DNA of 64,000 nt from Gemmatimonadales bacterium (GTDB lineage Bacteria; Gemmatimonadota; Gemmatimonadetes; Gemmatimonadales; GWC2-71-9), in the NCBI GenBank assembly GCA_019637315.1, contig JAHBVU010000003.1:186001-250000 (forward strand), written 5' to 3'. The position numbers and the translations under genes are program-made. Positions 20,253-25,294 of the stretch are shown here, one piece after another. Under the pieces are notes generated by a model. It did no database searches. It was not told the origin of the DNA and saw only the letters and a program-made list of their open reading frames with translations. How positions within the stretch are numbered: the first letter of the stretch is position 1; the number at the start of each line of letters is the position of its first letter.

Positions 20253-20352
20253 GCGCCCCAGGTCCGAAGGGTGCAGGTGCGCGAACCGCGTCAGGACCTT
20301 GCCGGTAGCAGCGCTAAGCGATTTCCGGCATCGCTTCGGGGTGCCTGGGGCA
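20253..20352 (+). ncRNA. ffs: Signal recognition particle RNA (bacterial small SRP RNA)
   Basis: The 4.5S-type RNA of about 100 nt that pairs with Ffh for co-translational membrane targeting. The conserved core GTCAGG ... AGCAGC is at 20290-20312, with the stem ACC/GGT between, and is followed by GCTAAGCGA, a usual continuation. The 5' GCCCCAGG (20255-20262) pairs with 3' CCTGGGGC (20344-20351) to close the rod. Its place divergent from dnaX matches many genomes that keep the two together. The apical loop is unusual: five bases, TTGCC, instead of the common GNRA tetraloop. The 158 nt after it (to 20510) contain only a weak GTCCG/CGGAC hairpin at 20418-20433. Confidence 0.87.
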
Positions 20353-20510
20353 CTTCCTCCCTTCTTCCAGCCGTTCTCTCTCGCTCGACTCGATCCGCCC
20401 CGGCAGACTCGCGTTTCGTCCGTTCTTGCGGACCTCTCCCGGTCAGTGGCGACTTCCGCTTCTCACACACGCAGCTTCCATATGGCCAAGCTGCGCAGTG
20501 ACGATGACGG

Positions 20511-21918: not shown

Positions 21919-23340
21919 CTATTCGCCCGCGTCAGCGTCGTCGACCGCCCGAACCGTCGGACGAGTCAGATCCGAGTGACGGAGCGGCGCAGCCTCAACA
22001 TGCCGCCGGACCAGCTCAGCCGTCCCGTTGACCTTGAGCTGTTCGAAAAGGAAGGTAAACGTCTTCTCCAGATCCGCTGCAATCGCCAACCGGGTTGCCT
22101 CGGGCAGCGACCAGAAATCCTTCTTGAAGGGCCCGATGGCCCGCTTCCGAGCCCGATAGTAGAACTGTTCGGGCGTGTCGCCATCCTTCCGTTCACTCGT
22201 CGCGTTCTCGTCGAGCCAGGCATAGGCCCGGTTCCGCAGCTCGGCGGGCAGGGCGGGATGCTCGAACACGATGGTCTGGAAATTGGTGGCGAGGTGGATC
22301 TCAGCCGTCTCGACCCGCGGGAAATTGCCGAAGGCATCGGCCGGCAGCGTACTGGCCCCGTGCTGCACCGCACCCGCCATCCCATAGGAATCCCGTGCCA
22401 CGCGGGACAAGGCTTCCAGCGCGGCGAGATCGAGTTTGACATCGGCAATCCGGCCATCAGGCAGCACGACACCGCCATGCGAGGTGCCGGTCTGCACCGA
22501 AATCTTGCTGATGCCGGCGAGCGAGGCGCCCCGGGCCGCCAGCGCCCGGTTGAAACCGGCCATGAAGGCGTCGAGCTCTTCGACCGTGCTGTTCTTGTGA
22601 CCGACCTCGCCGATTTCCGCACCAACCGAGACCGTCACGCCGCGCGGCTCGAGCCCGCGAATGAAAGCCGTGATTTCCGCCGCCCGCTCATAGTTGTCGC
22701 GCTGCTGCGCATCGAGGGTCGGGTGCGAGAGGTCGACCAGGGTCGAGGTGTCGACGTCGATGTTGAAGAACCCGGCCCCGATCTCCTCCGCGATCAGCTT
22801 CTTGACCTCGGATACTTCGGCCTCGGCGTCGGCCTGGTATTTCTTGGCGTTGACCTGGCAGTGGTCGCCCTGGATGAAGATCGGAAGCCGATAGCCCTCG
22901 CGGAGGGCGGCGGCAATCATCACGGCGACATACTCCGCGGGCCGCTGATCAGTGTAGGCAATTTCCGACCGGGCAATCTCCAGCAGAATGGCGCCCGCCT
23001 GACCGCGCTGAGCCGCTCTGAACACCGCCCGCGCGGTGTCGTACGCGAGCATCCGGACATTGATGGCCGGCACGGTGAACCCACCGCATTCCCCCCGGCC
23101 ACGCGCCAGGTACAAGTCGTGGATCGACGCCGGACGGACCCCAACCGCCTGCCCGATTTCCCAAAGCAACCAGCGGGCAGCCTCCTGCTCGGCGGCGCTT
23201 CCGAAAACCGCCTGCCAGACCACCCGATCAGTGGCGGGCGACGCCAGGACGGCCTCATCGGTGATCCGGACCCCGTCGTCGTGCACGGTCACGGCGCTTC
23301 CGTACGGAGCGGCAGCCTGCTGTCGGTCGGCCAACGTCAT
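21919..23340 (-). CDS. Divergent class II fructose-bisphosphate aldolase family protein
   Basis: A 473-residue protein related to class II aldolases, zinc enzymes that cleave ketose bisphosphates. Similarities are G-G-F-T-V-P-A-I-N-V-R near the N terminus, I-Q-G-D-H-C-Q-V-N (zinc ligand His), F-N-I-D-V-D-T-S, A-E-I-G-E-V-G-H (zinc ligand Glu/His region) and G-T-S-H-G-G. It is about 120 residues longer than the classical form, with an extra N-terminal 70 and a C-terminal helical extension after 370. Substrate may differ from fructose bisphosphate. A GGAGG precedes the ATG. It is divergent from the glycolytic pyk gene. Confidence 0.7.
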   Translation of the reverse strand: MTLADRQQAAAPYGSAVTVHDDGVRITDEAVLASPATDRVVWQAVFGSAAEQEAARWLLWEIGQAVGVRPASIHDLYLARGRGECGGFTVPAINVRMLAYDTARAVFRAAQRGQAGAILLEIARSEIAYTDQRPAEYVAVMIAAALREGYRLPIFIQGDHCQVNAKKYQADAEAEVSEVKKLIAEEIGAGFFNIDVDTSTLVDLSHPTLDAQQRDNYERAAEITAFIRGLEPRGVTVSVGAEIGEVGHKNSTVEELDAFMAGFNRALAARGASLAGISKISVQTGTSHGGVVLPDGRIADVKLDLAALEALSRVARDSYGMAGAVQHGASTLPADAFGNFPRVETAEIHLATNFQTIVFEHPALPAELRNRAYAWLDENATSERKDGDTPEQFYYRARKRAIGPFKKDFWSLPEATRLAIAADLEKTFTFLFEQLKVNGTAELVRRHVEAAPLRHSDLTRPTVRAVDDADAGE

Positions 23341-23857
23341 CGCCTATGCCTCCATCCTGGTGTATCTGAGGGGATTATCTGCGCGGCAATTTAGGCCGCG
23401 GCCACAAGACCGTCAAAGGCCTATTCGGGCCGTTCGAGCCCCGGAAAAGTCAAGTCCCCAGGTTCTTTTCCACATAACGTCGTTATGTGTACGCATTGTG
23501 GAGTGCCTGCACAAATTCTGCCGAGCTTGTTGAAACCGGCGTCGATGCAGAGACCCTTGCCACCAGAGGCTTTAGGCCGGGTGGAGGGGCAAGGTCGGGA
23601 AAGGTCGTTGTGGAAAGACCTGAGATTCCACATAGCTGGAAAGTCCCTTTTTCCCAGTGACCCGAGCCGGTTCAGCCGCCCCCCCGGATGTGGACAGAGC
23701 CGTGACAGTGTCGTGCTATGTCATTCCGATACAATGGATTACCTTCAACACTGCTGTCGATTCCGCTTCTCCACAAGGCGTCGATTACGGACACGGCCGA
23801 GACAATCCGAACCCGAAGCCCAGGCCGTTTTCCGAACCATCTTTAGCGAGGCTATCC
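23341..23857 (+). other. 517-nt non-coding region with six TCCACA hexamers
   Basis: No convincing gene lies here; open frames lack start contexts. TCCACA occurs six times in about 310 nt: + strand 23469-23474, 23627-23632 and 23770-23775; - strand 23497-23502, 23609-23614 and 23689-23694. Two of the 9-mers, TTTTCCACA (23466-23474) and TTCTCCACA (23767-23775), are one mismatch from the E. coli DnaA box TTATCCACA. TTCCACATA occurs twice, 158 nt apart. GATAAT on the minus strand (23374-23379) is a possible -10 for the aldolase gene, and TACAAT (23730-23735) one for pyk. Confidence 0.6.
23471..23489. repeat. Perfect 9-bp inverted repeat with 1-nt centre
   Basis: CACATAACG and CGTTATGTG flank a single T. 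It overlaps the first DnaA-box-like 9-mer. The short centre suits a dimeric regulator binding site better than a terminator, and no T run follows. Confidence 0.6.
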
Positions 23858-25294
23858 GTGGCAAGAGAAAGTCGCCGGACGAAAATCGTGGCTACCTTGG
23901 GCCCCGCCTGGGACCAACCCGAGCGAATGCGCGCGATGCTCGACGCCGGCGTCGACGTGGTACGGGTCAATGCATCACACGGCACGCTGGAAACGCGCCA
24001 CCGCTGGATCACCGAGCTCAAGGACATTCTCGGATCGCGGGAAAAGGCCGCGGCGATTCTCGTCGACCTGCAAGGCCCCAGAATACGGGTCGGCGACCTG
24101 CCTGAGCCGGTCCTGCTCACGCAAGGTGAGCAGGTGGTGCTTGCTCCGGAGGATCAGGCCCAGGCCGGCGACATCCCGACCTCCTATCGCGAGCTGGCGG
24201 AAGACGTTCGCCCCGGCACTCGGATCCTGCTCGACGACGGCCTGATTGCGTTGGACGTCGTAAGCGTTTCGGGCACCAAGGTCCACGCCTCGGTACGCTA
24301 CGGCGGCCTGCTCAAGTCCAACAAGGGCATCAATCTGCCCGGCGTCGAGGTCTCGACTCCCGCGCTGACCGCCAAGGATCGCGAAGACGCCATGATGGCC
24401 GTCGAGCTCGGCGTCAACTACCTGGGCATGAGTTTCGTCCGCCGGCCGCAGGATGTCGAAGGACTGCGGCGCCTGGTGCCCAAGCATGTCCGTCTGATTG
24501 CCAAGATCGAGAAGGACACCGCCCTGGGCCACCTGCCGGCCATCCTCGACGCCGCCGATGGCATCATGGTGGCCCGCGGCGATCTGGGCGTCGAGCTGCC
24601 CTTCGAGCGGGTTCCGCTGGTACAGAAGCGGCTGATCCGCGAAGCCAACCGTCACGGCAAGCCGGTCATCACCGCGACGCAGATGCTCGAGTCGATGATC
24701 AAGGCGCCCCGACCCACTCGGGCCGAAGCGTCGGACGTGGCCAACGCAATTCTCGACGGCACCGACGCGGTGATGCTCTCGGCCGAAACCGCGATCGGAT
24801 CCTACTCGCTCGAAGCGGTCCTCGCGATGGATCAGATTGCCCGTGAGGTCGAGGGACACCGCCACAGCAACACCGATCACTCGCATGAGTGGCAACTGTC
24901 GGCGTCACAGCTCAAGCAACCGCACGTGACCGCCAGCACCGAAGACGCCATTTCTGTTGCCGTGTGCGCCGCCGCCGACCTGCTCAACGTACCGCTGATC
25001 GTCTGTTTGACGAGCAGTGGGTTTACGGCGCGGACCGTCTCGTCCTACCGGCCATCCGTTCCGATTCTGGCCGTGACACCCGAAGCGACCACGTTCCAGC
25101 ACCTCGCCCTGGTCTGGGGTGTCATTCCCGTCCTGGTCGAGCGCCGCCCTGACTACGACTCGATGCTCGCCCTGACCCGCGAGGTCATCGTCAGGAAAGG
25201 ACTGGCCTGGCCGGGCGACCGATTCGTGGTAACGGCCGGGGTTCCCTTCGACCTGGCGGGAACCACGAACCTGCTCAGGATCGAGAGCGTGTGA
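23858..25294 (+). CDS. pyk: Pyruvate kinase
   Basis: Converts phosphoenolpyruvate and ADP to pyruvate and ATP. The 478-residue product has R-R-T-K-I-V-A-T-L-G-P at the N terminus, the K-I-E-K active-site lysine, M-V-A-R-G-D-L-G-V-E, and I-T-A-T-Q-M-L-E-S-M. GTG 23858, preceded by AGCGAGG, places this block correctly; the open frame begins at 23657, but the first 67 codons do not resemble the family. The C-terminal domain is a standard allosteric fold. It sits with pgi and the aldolase-like gene, a carbon-metabolism group. Confidence 0.95.
   Translation: MARESRRTKIVATLGPAWDQPERMRAMLDAGVDVVRVNASHGTLETRHRWITELKDILGSREKAAAILVDLQGPRIRVGDLPEPVLLTQGEQVVLAPEDQAQAGDIPTSYRELAEDVRPGTRILLDDGLIALDVVSVSGTKVHASVRYGGLLKSNKGINLPGVEVSTPALTAKDREDAMMAVELGVNYLGMSFVRRPQDVEGLRRLVPKHVRLIAKIEKDTALGHLPAILDAADGIMVARGDLGVELPFERVPLVQKRLIREANRHGKPVITATQMLESMIKAPRPTRAEASDVANAILDGTDAVMLSAETAIGSYSLEAVLAMDQIAREVEGHRHSNTDHSHEWQLSASQLKQPHVTASTEDAISVAVCAAADLLNVPLIVCLTSSGFTARTVSSYRPSVPILAVTPEATTFQHLALVWGVIPVLVERRPDYDSMLALTREVIVRKGLAWPGDRFVVTAGVPFDLAGTTNLLRIESV

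Follow-up and report, generated by a model that had tools for sequence, protein, structure and literature searches.

We propose that the non-coding spacer between a class II fructose-bisphosphate aldolase-like gene and the pyruvate kinase gene (pyk) of a Gemmatimonadales bacterium carries a chromosomal DnaA-control element outside oriC, which would act by titration, inactivation or reactivation of DnaA; we put the probability of this reading at roughly 0.7. The window analysed is a stretch of 64,000 nucleotides (bases 186001-250000 of contig C3) from a genome of 36 contigs and 3.9 Mb (G000). The putative element is an array of eight sites that start, relative to window position 23466, at 0+, 20-, 31-, 62-, 143-, 158+, 223- and 301+. 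Two weaker conserved sites among these (23486- and 23528-) are added to the array from information peaks in a cross-genome alignment. The features of the region are:

21919..23340, minus strand: class II fructose-bisphosphate aldolase-like gene (PF01116), the usual left neighbour
23388..23416, minus strand: promoter-like site of the divergent aldolase, TTGACG-17-TAAATT, lying outside the array (similar TTGAC/TAAATT in G001 and G005)
23466..23775, no strand: eight-site putative DnaA-box array, whole element (sequence-only model and spacing table)
23466..23474, plus strand: predicted DnaA box 1, TTTTCCACA, offset 0 (TCCACA invariant in 18 of 18 aligned genomes)
23471..23489, no strand: perfect inverted repeat CACATAACGTCGTTATGTG, overlapping box 1 (single-copy in five of six genus genomes)
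23486..23494, minus strand: weak box, GCGTACACA, offset 20 (TGTGnA columns conserved)
23497..23505, minus strand: predicted DnaA box 2, CACTCCACA, offset 31 (cross-genome alignment and spacing table)
23528..23536, minus strand: weak box, GTTTCAACA, offset 62, TCCACA-type in several relatives (GTKGA columns nearly invariant)
23609..23617, minus strand: predicted DnaA box 3, CTTTCCACA, offset 143 (TTATCCACA at the same place in G004, G005, G006 and G007)
23624..23632, plus strand: predicted DnaA box 4, GATTCCACA, offset 158
23689..23697, minus strand: predicted DnaA box 5, CTGTCCACA, offset 223 (TTTTCCACA at the same place in G005, G006 and G022)
23713..23762, no strand: stretch of lowest GC content between boxes 5 and 6 (60% AT in 40 nt; 84% over query 417-476 in G004)
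23767..23775, plus strand: predicted DnaA box 6, TTCTCCACA, offset 301
23858..25294, plus strand: pyruvate kinase gene pyk (PF00224, PF02887), right neighbour in the window's genus

The hexamer TCCACA is found in the pyk-aldolase spacer at 23469+, 23497-, 23609-, 23627+, 23689- and 23770+, three per strand over 307 nt, exactly where the original prediction had placed six copies within about 310 nt. It is the commonest of the hexamer classes in the 517-nt spacer. The claim that well under one copy is to be expected also holds, as 20,000 dinucleotide-preserving shuffles of the spacer give a mean of ~0.25 and a maximum of 4, compared with the actual 6. With 727 copies in 3.91 Mb as the background rate, the cluster has a Poisson estimate of ~5e-11 per 310-nt window and ~6e-7 genome-wide. 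The same word is depleted outside the cluster in the 64-kb window (13 copies in all vs ~22 expected) and strongly depleted in the whole genome (727 vs 1213 for the reversed word), and a complete scan of the 304-kb contig C3 gives no second 500-bp stretch with more than two copies. Because of this depletion, both window-wide and genome-wide, the cluster stands out of its background; the genome-wide depletion might be what is expected if selection acts against stray DnaA boxes. At the level of 9-mers, TTTTCCACA (23466) and TTCTCCACA (23767) are each one mismatch from TTATCCACA, as had been claimed, and TTTTCCACA is a perfect match to the TTWTNCACA box. The perfect inverted repeat said to overlap a box at 23471-23489 is present as CACATAACGTCGTTATGTG.

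We turn to the spacer in relatives, a comparison which the original prediction had asked for, and find that the boxes keep their sequence, orientation and spacing from genus to genus. Four genomes of the same genus have these boxes again, at steps of 28, 112, 18, 61-62 and mostly 81-82, the last position being without TCCACA in G005. The arrays of 18 genomes from eight genera align over 196 columns with no internal gap in 16 of them, the exceptions being one gap position in G012 and G031. Between genera, the box hexamer cores are 86% identical while the intervening columns are 33% identical. The spacing 0+/20-/31-/62-/143-/158+/~222-/~300+ is held in ~16 genomes of six genera, where offsets ~222 and ~300 were searched with a 12-nt tolerance, so that these two are less firmly established as constant than the first six sites. 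A model of the first 196 nt of the array built from sequence (R1) was run on 102 family genomes with strict filters. It matches ~24 of the 102 strongly and once each (E 2e-31 to 2e-7), including six genomes outside the model building (G013, G103, G109, G111, G113 and G122); in several of these six, and also in G012 and G031, offsets 143/158 are one base off or the match is partial. The other 78 family genomes have no strong R1 match under the strict filters, and the array is either clade-restricted or diverged beyond the reach of R1 elsewhere in the family. A comparable array was not found at the pyk of the single-contig relative G025 (whose skew is weak in the sampled stretches), and there is none at the pyk of the complete relative G043.

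The way in which the boxes vary bears on the ligand. Diverging boxes drift around TTWTCCACA, and exact TTATCCACA or TTTTCCACA occurs at several positions among the relatives; because of these exact copies we infer that the ligand of the array is DnaA rather than a regulator merely favouring TCCACA. The original suggestion of a DnaA-binding locus, as a titration or regulatory site, is thus favoured by boxes that are conserved across genera and whose variation is centred on TTWTCCACA. With a fixed order, orientation and spacing, the approximately eight boxes would serve as a scaffold for the assembly of several DnaA molecules into a single defined complex, remote from the origin. This complex would either withhold DnaA from oriC (titration) or alter the nucleotide state of DnaA, whether by hydrolysis of ATP, the datA mode, or by release of ADP, the DARS mode, and would thereby set the time at which oriC fires. 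The offsets of the first four sites (20, 31 and 62 nt) come close to whole helical turns, so that the DnaA molecules would occupy one face of the helix, and the fact that 158 nt of otherwise divergent sequence contain no indels points to one complex spanning the sites. Since such a rigid geometry is not needed for simple titration, we infer that the better candidate is a nucleotide-state change or a looped complex.

Most of the detailed knowledge of site-based DnaA control comes from E. coli, and related clusters have been reported in Bacillus and Streptomyces. In the open-licence literature we found no described replication-control site in Gemmatimonadota, and nothing direct on origins or DnaA clusters in this phylum. 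The matches to the DnaA box in the array are denser than chance would give, and the array is non-coding and away from oriC; we therefore assign it, putatively, to the general kind of DnaA-box clusters outside oriC, in none of the defined subtypes and with a geometry of its own. According to reviews, the extra-oriC DnaA-box clusters of Bacillus subtilis and Streptomyces (datA-like) repress untimely initiation (PMC5742627, PMC4585315). These clusters and the array have in common several DnaA boxes away from the unwinding site, whereas the array has a spacing that is rigid over ~300 nt between genera and belongs to a different lineage with different flanking genes.

The cores of DARS1 and DARS2, measured directly in E. 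coli K-12, both start with 0+, 14- and 26-, in line with the description of the DARS cores as identical in spacing with box I opposite to boxes II and III (PMC5742627). The orientation pattern of the array is alike, one box facing two opposite (0+, 20-, 31-), but its spacing is 0/20/31 and not 0/14/26. A search of the spacer for the DARS-core geometry gives no good match, and DARS membership is rejected on the core spacing. In E. coli datA, the essential boxes share one orientation and are accompanied by an IHF site (PMC5742627). Both datA and the array are non-coding with several boxes over a few hundred bp (the minimal datA is 262-bp), but the orientations in the array are mixed and neither an IHF nor a Fis consensus is found in it; datA membership is rejected for want of a single box orientation and an IHF site.

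More tentatively, and at somewhat less than even odds, this lineage of Gemmatimonadota may have a DnaA-regulating site of its own: a rigid eight-box platform, unlike datA or DARS and without IHF or Fis, that would sequester DnaA or change its nucleotide state. If this is true, site-based initiator control exists in a separate form outside Proteobacteria and Gram-positives. The array is a rigid, single-copy, lineage-wide and defined object of 310 nt, which makes it testable, and it stays in place where the flanking genes change.

In most array-bearing genomes, including those of the window's genus, the gene order is aldolase, array, pyk, with the array in the divergent spacer between two glycolytic genes. 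This order, and the closeness of the array to metabolic promoters, would suit DnaA acting on the array as an operator that couples transcription of pyk or the aldolase to the replication cycle. The aldolase promoter-like site is ~50 nt from box 1, and the promoter-like patch between boxes 5 and 6 (23713..23762), which is conserved within the genus, is probably the pyk promoter. We nevertheless consider the operator unlikely, because the neighbours differ by genus. G007 and G111 have the order aldolase, array, amidohydrolase-like gene. In G103, where the array is partial and degraded, the left ORF has no Pfam match and an amidohydrolase lies to the right with pyk beyond it, so that neither pyk nor the aldolase adjoins. 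In G031 the array is upstream of pyk and the aldolase downstream of pyk, the left neighbour not being an aldolase. (The amidohydrolase family is assigned by Pfam, PF07969, in the G103 homologue and by ORF resemblance in G007 and G111.) The comparison of neighbours rests on draft genomes, in which a single misassembly is possible, yet four separate cases agree. The array is independent of either neighbour gene, and what is constant is the array and not the adjoining promoter. As the array stays while its neighbours change (the aldolase alone, pyk alone or neither of them), serving as an operator for pyk or the aldolase is probably not its sole function; the rigid 310-nt multi-site geometry also exceeds the needs of an operator. 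The spacer itself contains no Rfam match to a structured RNA, and no terminator was found in it. Elsewhere in the window, a bacterial small SRP RNA (RF00169) is located at 20255-20354 (+), beside a dnaX-like gene.

The identity of the ligand could also be questioned, in that the sites may be read by a different regulator with a TCCACA-like site, or by two proteins, DnaA and a reader of the CACATAACGNCGTTATGTG palindrome. This possibility draws on the overlap of box 1 with the perfect 19-nt palindrome, which the window's genus conserves, and on the boxes themselves: at several positions the 9-mer agrees with the consensus in just six or seven of nine bases, and positions 1-3 of several boxes are poorly conserved. 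The palindrome, however, is lost in most other genera where box 1 remains invariant, the drift is towards TTATCCACA and TTTTCCACA, the known DnaA consensus, and mixed orientations with long gaps suit DnaA. We regard a different or second reader as improbable and keep DnaA as the likely ligand.

With dense DnaA boxes, a conserved spacing and a less GC-rich patch, the array could be taken for the origin of the chromosome, or for one component of a bipartite origin, which the original prediction had kept as a possibility only. We find this very improbable. When the GC skew is followed around the locus, there is no switch at the array, the skew being negative along practically all of the 304-kb contig C3, and G119 likewise has no switch at its array. 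The cumulative-skew minimum lies instead on contig C1, on a plateau at ~27-46 kb beside dnaA-dnaN. The dnaA-dnaN spacer there (G000 C1:45044-45282; L012:5045-5283) has a TCCACA box, then CTCTACTACGACTACT-type DnaA-trios and then an AT-rich stretch; in this genome and most relatives examined, TCCACA is followed by CTCTACTACTACTACTAG-like repeats at ~10-13 nt and an AT-rich stretch. Such a box-spacer-trio module is the described basal unwinding system, BUS (PMC8287927), and the dnaA-dnaN spacer is probably the true oriC. In the complete relative G043 the skew flips at dnaA, and in G119 the skew near dnaA is less sharp, with a switch ~120 kb away (sampled stretches). By contig positions, the distance from the array to dnaA is at least ~760 kb in G119 and at least ~716 kb in G110; in the window's genome the lower bound is just ~140 kb. 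DnaA boxes are common to the array and a bacterial oriC with BUS, but the array has no DnaA-trios next to a box, nor has the patch between boxes 5 and 6, and it has no skew switch and is not at dnaA, while the lineage has its own such module in the dnaA-dnaN spacer. The array as oriC is therefore rejected by the absent skew switch, the absent trios and the distance of more than 0.7 Mb from dnaA in two relatives, and oriC most likely lies elsewhere. Clustering of the hexamers by chance is hardly credible, for although a hexamer is a short word and the GC content of the spacer is below that of the genome, none of the 20,000 shuffles exceeds four copies and the recurrence of the same boxes at the same spacing in other genera refutes it.

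Other loci of the genome also have DnaA-related features. Upstream of recA (G000 C9:11898-12046; L013:3899-4047) are five TCCACA boxes in ~150 bp, two of which are TTTTCCACA. In several genomes of the window's genus this cluster again has a pair of boxes at a distance of 11 nt (e.g., TTTTCCACA and TTGTCCACA), and outside the genus the cluster is mostly absent. A conserved CTTGTTTCGGATAATCTTCGG-like element lies upstream of recA, at 70-120 nt, both in genomes of the genus (L345, L347) and in relatives (L350, L358), and is possibly an SOS-type operator of the lineage. Another region (G000 C6:76896-77316; L016) has four TCCACA boxes in ~420 bp, one of which is the genome's sole exact TTATCCACA. 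Finally, a gene at ~49.6-51.6 kb of contig C13 (L002:1135-3075, minus strand) encodes a 646-aa protein that matches PF00308 twice, as two DnaA-type AAA+ modules, and does not match the DNA-binding domain of DnaA. The gene adjoins a DUF4388-TPR gene, and DnaA searches match similar tandem proteins in many relatives; the protein could act on DnaA.
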